DNA of 64,000 nt, taken from positions 5,217,001-5,281,000 of the forward strand of contig NZ_CP048834.1 in the NCBI RefSeq assembly GCF_012971745.1, given 5' to 3'. The stretch is from Starkeya sp. ORNL1 (GTDB lineage: Bacteria; Pseudomonadota; Alphaproteobacteria; Rhizobiales; Xanthobacteraceae). Made by a program: the position numbers and the translations under genes. The notes beneath the pieces are model-generated. The model was not told the origin of the DNA. It made no database searches and saw nothing but the letters and a program-made list of their open reading frames with translations. Of the stretch, positions 7,058 to 46,168 are shown piece by piece (position 1 is the stretch's first letter; the number at the start of each line of letters is the position of its first letter).

Positions 7058-7135
7058 TGGCGGGCGAACGGTCTAGGCGCGGGGGTAGGGGGCGTCAATG
7101 GGGAGGGCAGGCCGCAGCCCCGTGCCGTCATCAAG

Positions 7136-8095
7136 TCAGTTTGGCTGAGGGATTTGAGCGTCTCGCAGGGTAGCGTTGGCGATGACGACGAGCTTTCGCG
7201 CGACAGCGGCGATGGCGAGGCGCTTTGGTTTTCCAGCGGCGGTGAGGCGCTGGTAGACGGCGCTCAAGGCTGGGTGGGCGCGTGCAGCGGAGAGCGCCGC
7301 CATGAAGAGCACGGGGCGCAGGGCTGCGCGGCCGCCGGTCATTCTTCGGTATTTTCGGGCGGATCCGGAATCTCTGGGATGGGGAGCGAGGCCGGCGAGG
7401 CTGGCGGCCTGTTTGGGGCCGAGCCGGCCGAGTTCGGGCAGCAGGGCGATGAGGGTGCGGGCGGCGACCGGGCCGATGCCCGGGATGGCGCGCAGGATCT
7501 GCTCGTGGCGCGCCAGGTCGGGGTCGGCGTCGAGTTGCTCGGCCATGAGGCGGTCGATCTCGGCGATCTGGCTGGTGAGGAAGTGGATCTGCCGATCCAG
7601 CAATTGATGGAGCGGTTCGGCGCCTGGAGCGCCGCGCCGGTTCTTGGCCTGGGTGCGCTGGGCCAGCAGATCCTGACGATGGCGCAGCCGTGCGGCGAAG
7701 GCTTCGCGTTCGCGGCTGGGCACTTGCCAGGGCGTCAGGGTGGCGGCGCGTTCGCGGCCGTACCGGCTCAACCAGGCGGCGTCGATCCGGTCGGTCTTGG
7801 CGCGTCCGCCATGGGAGGCGATGAAGGCCTTCGCCTGGGCGGCGTCCACGCGGGCGGCCGGCAAGCCCACCGCGGCCGCCGTCTCGAGCAGCGCGCGCTC
7901 GTAGCCGCCAGTGGTCTCGCAAATCAGCCAGTCATAGCCGGCGTAGGGCGCCAGCGCCGCGCCCAGGCTCTCGGGGGTGTTGGCCGCGCTCCAGCTGCGG
8001 CCGGTTTGGTCGTCATGGAAGACGATGCTGCCCTTGGCGACATCGGCGCCCAGGATGCGCAGGCCGGCATTGGCCGGCGGGATGGGTTGAGGCAT
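7136..8095 (-). CDS. IS110-family DEDD recombinase (transposase)
   Basis: 319 aa. N-terminal RuvC-like DEDD domain: Asp18 in LGADVAK, Glu60 in ICETTGGYE, Asp102 and Asp105 in AKTDRIDA. A coiled linker (about 125-195) leads to the Tnp_20 domain with IPGIGPVAARTL (204-215) and a probable catalytic Ser243 in PRDSGSARK. Family enzymes excise and insert the element through a circular form guided by an element-encoded RNA. The stop lies inside the element's 3' end, leaving all noncoding sequence at the 5' side, which is the IS110-group layout. Confidence 0.95.
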   Translation of the reverse strand: MPQPIPPANAGLRILGADVAKGSIVFHDDQTGRSWSAANTPESLGAALAPYAGYDWLICETTGGYERALLETAAAVGLPAARVDAAQAKAFIASHGGRAKTDRIDAAWLSRYGRERAATLTPWQVPSREREAFAARLRHRQDLLAQRTQAKNRRGAPGAEPLHQLLDRQIHFLTSQIAEIDRLMAEQLDADPDLARHEQILRAIPGIGPVAARTLIALLPELGRLGPKQAASLAGLAPHPRDSGSARKYRRMTGGRAALRPVLFMAALSAARAHPALSAVYQRLTAAGKPKRLAIAAVARKLVVIANATLRDAQIPQPN

Positions 8096-8099
8096 GATC

Positions 8100-8275
8100 T
8101 CGCTCGGCTTCGGATTGTCTGCGGGCGCGCTCGCGCGGCCCAGTCAAGTCAACAAGCACACGAAGCCGGCCCGCCGCCGGACCTTGATGACGACGGGCGT
8201 ATCGCCCGATCCCAGAACGGCCGCAGCGGCGGGCGCAGATCCGGGGCTGGCCGGCCCCGGATCTGCTTCCGGCCA
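8100..8275 (-). ncRNA. Predicted bridge RNA of IS110 copy 1
   Basis: Read on the minus strand. A 13 bp hairpin comes first (8254-8266 with 8235-8247). Next is a target loop closed by CCCGCCG/CGGCGGG (8227-8233 with 8170-8176). Its arms are UCUGGGAU (8216-8209), which pairs with the target top strand ATCCCGGA with one G-U, and CGUCAUC (8192-8186), which pairs with the other strand. Last is a donor loop closed by GGCUUCG/CGAAGCC (8161-8167 with 8106-8112). Its arms TGACTTGA (8151-8144) and CAGACAATC (8121-8113) match the element's right and left ends at the circle junction. The limits are estimates. Confidence 0.8.
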
Positions 8276-8307
8276 ACACCACAATGCATCATCTCCAACA
8301 GACAATC

Positions 8308-8403
8308 CCGGACGGCCGCAGGCCGATCCGGGATCGCAAGAAGGTGTTGTGCGGGACTTCGCGCGATCCCGGCTCTTCGGCTGCGCCTCCGGCCGGGATG
8401 ACG
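8308..8403. repeat. Family C repeat split by IS110 copy 1
   Basis: Right-hand remainder of a family C unit: CCGGACGGCCGCAGGCCGAT and CCGGGATCG, then a spacer, then GCGATCCCGGCTC and GGCCGGGATGACG. The left end (CGTCATC, 7126-7132) is on the other side of the IS. Intact relatives lie at 12838, 30632, 39671 and 60951. Confidence 0.85.
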
Positions 8404-35783: not shown

Positions 35784-37850
<2,067 letters not shown>

Positions 37851-38016
37851 CGTGGTCATTACGGCGGCAATCGATCGGGCTGTCAACGCACACACGCGTT
37901 GCTTAAAAGTTTAAAGGGATTCGTAACGATGTTTTCATGAAACCATTGCGCCGCGGGCCACTCGGGAACTCACTGGGGGAAGCCGGTTTATCCCTTCGTA
38001 ACAAGGGAGTGCAGAT

Positions 38017-44975: not shown

Positions 44976-44996
44976 GAACCCATTATCGTCATCAAG

Positions 44997-45956
44997 TCAG
45001 TTTGGCTGGGGGATTTGAGCGTCTCGCAGGGTAGCGTTGGCGATGACGACGAGCTTTCGGGCGACAGCGGCGATGGCGAGGCGCTTTGGTTTTCCAGCGG
45101 CGGTGAGGCGCTGGTAGACGGCGCTCAAGGCTGGGTGGGCGCGTGCAGCGGAGAGCGCCGCCATGAAGAGCACGGGGCGCAGGGCTGCGCGGCCGCCGGT
45201 CATTCTTCGGTATTTTCGGGCGGATCCGGAATCTCTGGGATGGGGAGCGAGGCCGGCGAGGCTGGCGGCCTGTTTGGGGCCGAGCCGGCCGAGTTCGGGC
45301 AGCAGGGCGATGAGGGTGCGGGCGGCGACCGGGCCGATGCCCGGGATGGCGCGCAGGATCTGCTCGTGGCGCGCCAGGTCGGGGTCGGCGTCGAGTTGCT
45401 CGGCCATGAGGCGGTCGATCTCGGCGATCTGGCTGGTGAGGAAGTGGATCTGCCGATCCAGCAATTGATGGAGCGGCTCGGCGCCTGGAGCGCCGCGCCG
45501 GTTCTTGGCCTGGGTGCGCTGGGCCAGCAGATCCTGACGATGGCGCAGCCGTGCGGCGAAGGCTTCGCGTTCGCGGCTGGGCACTTGCCAGGGCGTCAGG
45601 GTGGCGGCGCGTTCGCGGCCGTACCGGCTCAACCAGGCGGCGTCGATCCGGTCGGTCTTGGCGCGTCCGCCATGGGAGGCGATGAAGGCCTTCGCCTGGG
45701 CGGCGTCCACGCGGGCGGCCGGCAAGCCCACCGCGGCCGCCGTCTCGAGCAGCGCGCGCTCGTAGCCGCCAGTGGTCTCGCAAATCAGCCAGTCATAGCC
45801 GGCGTAGGGCGCCAGCGCCGCGCCCAGGCTCTCGGGGGTGTTGGCCGCGCTCCAGCTGCGGCCGGTTTGGTCGTCATGGAAGACGATGCTGCCCTTGGCG
45901 ACATCGGCGCCCAGGATGCGCAGGCCGGCATTGGCCGGCGGGATGGGTTGAGGCAT
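44997..45956 (-). CDS. IS110-family DEDD recombinase, copy 2
   Basis: 319 aa, identical in protein sequence to the copy at 7136. Residues D18, E60, D102, D105 and S243 are all kept, and the frame is intact, so both elements look functional. Confidence 0.95.
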   Translation of the reverse strand: MPQPIPPANAGLRILGADVAKGSIVFHDDQTGRSWSAANTPESLGAALAPYAGYDWLICETTGGYERALLETAAAVGLPAARVDAAQAKAFIASHGGRAKTDRIDAAWLSRYGRERAATLTPWQVPSREREAFAARLRHRQDLLAQRTQAKNRRGAPGAEPLHQLLDRQIHFLTSQIAEIDRLMAEQLDADPDLARHEQILRAIPGIGPVAARTLIALLPELGRLGPKQAASLAGLAPHPRDSGSARKYRRMTGGRAALRPVLFMAALSAARAHPALSAVYQRLTAAGKPKRLAIAAVARKLVVIANATLRDAQIPQPN

Positions 45957-45960
45957 GATC

Positions 45961-46136
45961 TCGCTCGGCTTCGGATTGTCTGCGGGCGCGCTCGCGCGGC
46001 CCAGTCAAGTCAACAAGCACACGAAGCCGGCCCGCCGCCGGACCTTGATGACGACGGGCGTATCGCCCGATCCCAGAACGGCCGCAGCGGCGGGCGCAGA
46101 TCCGGGGCTGGCCGGCCCCGGATCTGCTTCCGGCCA
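45961..46136 (-). ncRNA. Predicted bridge RNA of IS110 copy 2
   Basis: Sequence identical to the leader of copy 1. The same 13 bp hairpin (46096-46108 with 46115-46127), target loop arms (46047-46053 and 46070-46077) and donor loop arms (45974-45982 and 46005-46012) are present. Confidence 0.8.
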
Positions 46137-46168
46137 ACACCACAATGCATCATCTCCAACAGACAATC

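Follow-up and report, generated by a model that had tools for sequence, protein, structure and literature searches.

IS621 of E. coli (PDB 8wt6) joins a RuvC-like DEDD domain and a Tnp domain with its serine in one recombinase and encodes a bridge RNA in its LE (PMC11208160, PMC11208158); this RNA reads 5′ hairpin, target loop, donor loop, the 5′ arm matching the left half and the 3′ arm the right half (PMC11208160). All these traits recur in the IS110-group element described here, which lies in a window of 64,000 nucleotides (the whole stretch of DNA analysed) from Starkeya sp. ORNL1, whereas its core (AT instead of CT), the length of its right target guide (about 7 nt instead of 4), its target and donor, and its non-coding RE of about 5 nt set it apart from IS621 as the available text describes it (PMC11208160). 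According to the same text, IS621 became less efficient when AT, GT or TT replaced CT as its core, and it gained from right target pairing extended from 4 to 7 bp (PMC11208160). With the seekRNA of ISEc21, also of IS110 type, the element shares a non-coding region upstream of the transposase gene (tnp), insertion without duplication, a bottom-strand match 5′ of the top-strand match, and the existence of retargeted relatives (ISMch6 for ISEc21); the ISEc21 target is a conserved stretch in IS3-family transposase genes rather than a palindromic repeat, and a short 74-nt seekRNA form is described for it in the available text (PMC11187229). Preference for palindromic repeats is not new for the IS110 family either, since all listed copies of ISPpu9, ISPpu10, ISPa11 and ISRm19 lie in such (REP) repeats, as most copies of the present element do; those are other repeats in other hosts, reported before bridge RNAs were known (PMC1525189, as far as its available text goes). 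Among the matches listed in a literature search, none reported this element or described a clade of elements with an AT core. Its bridge RNA is thus of an ordinary and known kind, the IS110 bridge RNA, and less ordinary are its native AT core and the number of natural retargetings that one small sample of relatives shows.

The element, its copies and their landing sites

The host genome, a single contig of 6.29 Mb, carries the recombinase of the element seven times at 100% identity. Comparison of six copies fixes the ends and a length of 1,175 bp; the copy L014, in which one base differs inside the search anchor, was read separately and has the same ends. On the plus strand, GTCATC precedes and C follows the element in all seven copies. 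The main features, apart from the RNA itself, are:

7130..8306, minus strand: IS110-group element with the AT core at either end (1,175 bp and a further core copy), ends from seven copies
44991..46167, minus strand: the element's second copy, inserted into a further copy of the palindromic repeat, with bridge RNA at 45967-46130
7136..8095, minus strand: IS110 DEDD recombinase, 319 aa, with D18, E60, D102, D105 and S243 (Pfam PF01548 and PF02371)
7126..7132, minus strand: right target with the core and the preceding base, GATGACG on the tnp strand, identical in all seven copies
7130..7138, minus strand: RE and left donor, TGACTTGAT, whose TGA is the transposase stop codon
8299..8307, minus strand: LE and right donor, GATTGTCTG
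8305..8312, minus strand: left target, TCCGGGAT, the end of a palindromic repeat running to about 8403

The left non-coding end is long (about 210 nt before tnp) and the right one short, at only about 5 nt past the stop codon, because the TGA within RE is that stop codon. A filled site, reading GTCATC, element, CCGGA, against the empty GTCATCCCGGA reveals no target duplication beyond the core. The window alone would allow any part of GAT as core, and AT is taken from the relatives L089, L098, L090 and L091, in which AAT precedes LE and GAT ends RE. The upstream position of the non-coding region, with the left arm first, separates the element from the IS1111 group, where the region is downstream and the arms are reversed.

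Both Pfam domains of the recombinase, PF01548 (DEDD) and PF02371 (Ser), score above both cut-offs. A search of PDB sequences returned ISCro4 (PDB 9t56; E 1.6e-27, residues 12-312), the best-scoring solved sequence, likened to the window's recombinase by alignment alone, and IS621 (E 7.2e-27). The catalytic residues are invariant, D18 nearly so, in an alignment of 24 homologues (A1). From the ISCro4 alignment and conservation in A1, D18, E60, D102, D105 and S243 are taken, by eye, to correspond to D11, E60, D102, D105 and S241 of IS621, as these are given in the available text of PMC11208158.

At 8305-8403 of the window, and elsewhere in the genome, lies an abundant palindromic repeat; it measures about 100 bp, and its two ends, ATCCCGGA and ATCCCGGC, differ. 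Scoring of 40 candidates placed the sequence from 8305 to about 8403 in at least 33 further places at 86-94% identity, and the genome contains the 11-mer GTCATCCCGGA, which spans the empty site, 181 times and its reversed letters not once. Of the 30 repeat loci that matched best, four are occupied and 26 empty; 22 of the empty ones end in GTCATCCCGGA on one side and GTCATCCCGGC on the other, one has A and T, and three are readable at one end only. The earlier note had ascribed to the element a specificity for an abundant repeat, which describes six of the seven copies, each running on into the repeat at its ATCCCGGA end; the seventh, L015, is an off-target insertion outside it. All six repeat insertions use the A end, although A ends may be over-represented among the 30 loci because the query began at that end; this use agrees with the left guide, whose outermost base, U, would pair with that A. 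The C that precedes GTCATC in all seven copies was dropped as evidence, carrying little information because 153 of the 181 GTCATCCCGGA sites have it anyway.

The copy outside the repeat (L015; G000:C1:1592313-1593495) matches its guides at 7/7 positions in the right half and 5/8 in the left, and sits at the left edge of another, single-copy IS110 element:

L015:4131-4261, G000:C1:1591149-1592449, minus strand: second IS110 element of the host, single copy, encoding a separate bridge RNA with a CT core

The leader of this second element matches the covariance model R2 (see below) at 62 bits, its RNA being among the rows that built R2. Its right guide CCUCAGC fits GCTGAGG at 7/7, and its left target reads ACAATCCT, only 4/8, because the window's element sits there; when the flanks are joined by eye they give GTCATCCT, which fits the guide GUCGUCCU at 7/8, the eighth position being a G-U. 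The host therefore has two bridge-RNA elements that differ in core and in target, and the edge of one is where a copy of the other has inserted.

Anatomy of the leader

Along the tnp strand, the leader forms a 13-bp hairpin followed by a target loop and then a donor loop:

8235..8266, minus strand: 5′ hairpin of the bridge RNA, present in the fold
8226..8234, minus strand: target loop outer stem, 5′ strand (helix 1)
8209..8216, minus strand: left target guide UCUGGGAU, for target TCCGGGAT, with one G-U
8195..8207, minus strand: target loop tip hairpin GGGCG AUA CGCCC (helix 3)
8186..8192, minus strand: right target guide CGUCAUC, pairing with GATGACG
8169..8177, minus strand: target loop outer stem, 3′ strand (helix 1, from the fold)
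8154..8157, minus strand: donor loop closing stem, 5′ strand GCUU (helix 4)
8144..8151, minus strand: left donor guide UGACUUGA, the same letters as the element's RE
8122..8142, minus strand: donor loop inner hairpin UGGGC/GCCCG (helix 5)
8113..8121, minus strand: right donor guide CAGACAAUC, pairing with LE GATTGTCTG
8107..8110, minus strand: donor loop closing stem, 3′ strand AAGC (helix 4)

The four guide arms that the earlier note had placed here, UCUGGGAU (8216-8209), CGUCAUC (8192-8186), TGACTTGA (8151-8144) and CAGACAATC (8121-8113), were each found once on the minus strand within 8090-8320, and its account of an IS621-like order, strand rule and guide lengths agrees with what is published in the available text on IS621 (PMC11208160). 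Its stems needed more revision. The target loop is closed not by 7 bp but by 9 (8234-8226 with 8177-8169), with 4 bp more nearer the loop. The 7-bp donor stem GGCUUCG/CGAAGCC does appear in the minimum free energy fold; in alignments by eye it is lost in the relatives L086, L073 and L074, whereas GCUU/AAGC is kept and covaries (95% of helix 4 cells paired, with changes on both sides), so that GCUU/AAGC is the more likely closure. The linkers of 1-2 nt change accordingly in part, since 11 nt precede the donor loop when it is closed by GCUU/AAGC.

The RNA from 8275 to 8106 folds at -101.4 kcal/mol (z -4.31), and none of 200 shuffles was as stable. In a structure alignment of relatives (A5), 24 of 26 pairs had changed on both sides, in 218 such cells against 62.9 after shuffling, counts that lean towards structure because A5 was fitted to the model. 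An Rfam search of the leader returned no family at gathering score. Elsewhere, at 37726-37855 on the minus strand, the window holds a TPP riboswitch (Rfam, 65.5 bits). Taken together with the comparisons below, the sequence makes it highly probable that the leader encodes an IS110 bridge RNA, complete in anatomy.

Guides, targets and cores among the relatives

Protein searches led to recombinases of 74% (L059), 54% (L086), 42% (L073) and 40% (L074) identity, whose leaders all share the plan described above; the nearest named relative, L059, comes from a Phenylobacterium MAG, and in its leader (L059:1232-1490) the 5′ hairpin and linker are tandemly duplicated. In all, 1,132 protein homologues were found and 120 listed, which carry no DNA and so could not serve for guides. 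Genome contigs yielded one close relative and one at 35%, plasmids only matches under 60% identity, and viral contigs, searched by protein and by alignment, no relative. A first covariance model, built from five leaders, had matches in 9 of the 385 genomes in the class, host included; a second (R2) matched in 20 of 397 genomes of the order, again host included, and in 6 of 328 of the family of the L059 host, two already known among them. The first model gave 17 matches, from which L092 and L093 (tnp truncated or broken) entered R2 and stayed out of the tables, and L094 and L095, which scored 29.7 and 24.7 bits and had no tnp match, were set aside as probable false hits. Even similar recombinases do not all come with this leader type, because the leaders of L062, L063 and L064 (recombinases of 36-39% identity) had no match to the RNA model. 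After removal of repeat listings, 74 loci gave 76 RNAs in register and these 39 elements, 27 with an AT and 12 with a CT core.

In the AT-core elements a mostly constant CCGU is followed by an 8-nt left guide, the arm being one longer in L108, L111, L119 and G1133. Left guides and their targets include:

L059: guide ACCGGGAU, target ACCGGGAT
L074: guide CUCGCGAU, target CTCGCGAT
L098: guide GCGGGAAU, target GCGGGAAT
L090 and G926: guide CUCGCAAU, target CTCGCAAT
G1148: guide CCCGGGAU, target CCCGGGAT
L115: guide CACCAGAU, target CACCAGAT
L111: guide CGUAGGAU, target CGTAGGAT

Guides and partners were compared by permutation with one row per element, multi-copy elements entering with their majority guide and target. 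For the left target guide of 24 of the 27 AT-core elements (L073, with 6 nt only, and L127 and L131, whose ends are unreadable, being left out), 127 of 144 non-core positions matched against a shuffled-partner mean of 68.9, none of 20,000 permutations, which keep column make-up and not descent, reaching as high. Thirteen of these guides matched at 8/8, eight at 7/8 and three at 6/8 or less. With one row per distinct left guide (n=17) the count was 95/102 against 48.2 (0/20,000); within genus g401, where six elements have four guides, 34/36 against 26.0 (491/20,000); and among nine of the 12 CT-core relatives (L120 and L146b, unreadable at that end, and L015b, its target broken by the window's element, were excluded), 48/54 against 35.5 (4/20,000). 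Right target guides gave 65/72 against 55.7 (1/20,000) in 18 of 27 AT-core elements, 11 of which match at 7/7 and seven at 6/7, and 23/28 against 11.5 (18/20,000) in seven of 12 CT-core ones. A 7-nt right target match was considered as a mark of AT cores and rejected, because five of the seven CT-core relatives also match at 7/7. The donor guides of AT-core elements scored 121/126 against 94.6 on the left (18 of 27 elements) and 128/144 against 99.5 on the right (24 of 27, without L127, L131 and L130), both at 0/20,000, tests that are partly circular for single-copy relatives, whose ends were placed by hand and not blind from homologous ends (RE with guide-like words, LE by hand), and free of that circularity for the window's element.

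Several elements fit less well. L091 has the left guide common to L090 and G926 and matches its target at only 3/8; the left guides of L108 and L130 reach 6/8, those of L110 and L114 7/8, and those of the G974b copies, in two versions, 5-7/8. All eight copies of G1195 stand at 6/8, with a core base of the guide changed among the misfits; the last core base is likewise different in G383, L118 and L135. In L116 the right guide, at 2/7, does not fit, and one G1148 copy, L123, has target TCCGGGAT with guide CCCGGGAU, 7/8. In L119 (left 7/8) and L098 (left 8/8) a good guide-target match accompanies a recombinase split over two frames, and bridge RNAs may outlast their recombinase. The earlier note had looked to homologues for co-variation of loop arms with targets and had named unchanged arms at other sites as the contrary case; what the homologues carry, with few exceptions, is changed arms that match, and relatives landing elsewhere mostly bear guides altered to suit.

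In a tree of 23 recombinases, 16 from AT-core and seven from CT-core elements fall on two sides of one branch (98/96), so the core is a lineage trait in this sample. Tried and unused in it were L098 and L119 (recombinase over two frames), L106 (86 aa only), and L113, L137 and L123 (no match), and it was built without L110, L115, L127, L128, L130, L131, L135, L136, L122 and L146b. L119, outside the tree owing to its split frame, has an AT core with donor arms resembling those of the CT-core group. Identity to the window's recombinase, where measured, is 33-74% for AT-core and 34-39% for CT-core elements.

Alternative readings, a possible mechanism and implications

An arm match could arise by chance, since matches of 7-9 nt are to be expected between a G+C-rich leader and a G+C-rich repeat, and singly they do: in 20,000 dinucleotide shuffles of the leader (8106-8300) the left target arm found a match in 724 and the right target arm in 229. 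Two or more arms matched in only 7 of these shuffles, however, and all four in none, and in the relatives the arms keep their position and change with their targets; chance is therefore rejected as the origin of the arm matches, its probability being negligible. A leader of this composition would also fold strongly whatever its use, and small RNAs regulating tnp have been reported for ISPpu9, according to the available text (PMC8450116), so that the leader might instead be a structured 5′ UTR or a transposase binding site, recognition being by protein only and the arm resemblance a by-product of ancestry. Against this stand guide arms that change in step with the different targets of relatives, arms that match opposite strands in the IS621 order, and a structure kept through changes on both sides, and we regard such a leader as very improbable.

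A bridge RNA inherited but now defunct, the element having spread to its present copies before promoter or guide decayed, would account for the weak junction -10 of the window's copy and for a left guide that has one G-U, and not an exact match, at all six repeat sites. Yet G-U is a standard pair, and seven open copies with recombinases 100% identical and equal bridge RNA scores point to recent spread, which leaves decay unlikely. We infer instead that the bridge RNA of this element is a working one.

With a working bridge RNA, the element would excise as a circle whose joined RE, core and LE would make a promoter for that RNA. One recombinase dimer with the target loop would hold the palindromic repeat at its end, with UCUGGGAU for one strand and CGUCAUC for the other, and another with the donor loop would hold the circle junction through UGACUUGA and CAGACAAUC; the serine would then cut next to the AT core, and insertion would proceed without duplicated target bases. 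The predicted promoter is as follows:

8281..8286, minus strand: predicted weak -10, CATTGT, of the circle-formed promoter, its putative -35 TTGATT being 7134-7130 joined to 8304

This candidate agrees with the promoter on the IS621 circle, but the window's copy makes a weak case for it, reading TTGATT, 17 nt and a poor CATTGT (3/6). At 17-18 nt, relatives have TATAAT (L090), TATATT (L091, L115) or TAAAAT (L089), and others no better box.

Beyond this locus, the relatives suggest a natural clade of IS110 elements with an AT core, probably alphaproteobacterial, whose target guides have been rewritten repeatedly to suit different sites, palindromic-repeat ends being several of these, a proposal that could equally well hold or fail. 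What the analysis adds are native AT-core elements and naturally retargeted sets, such as genus g401, where six elements carry four different left guides (L127, the seventh there, adds another guide, its target being unreadable), in which guide and target are seen changing together from raw sequence. If the proposal is true, the AT-core clade would supply ready-made recombinases with AT as their native core, one on which engineered IS621 performs less well.
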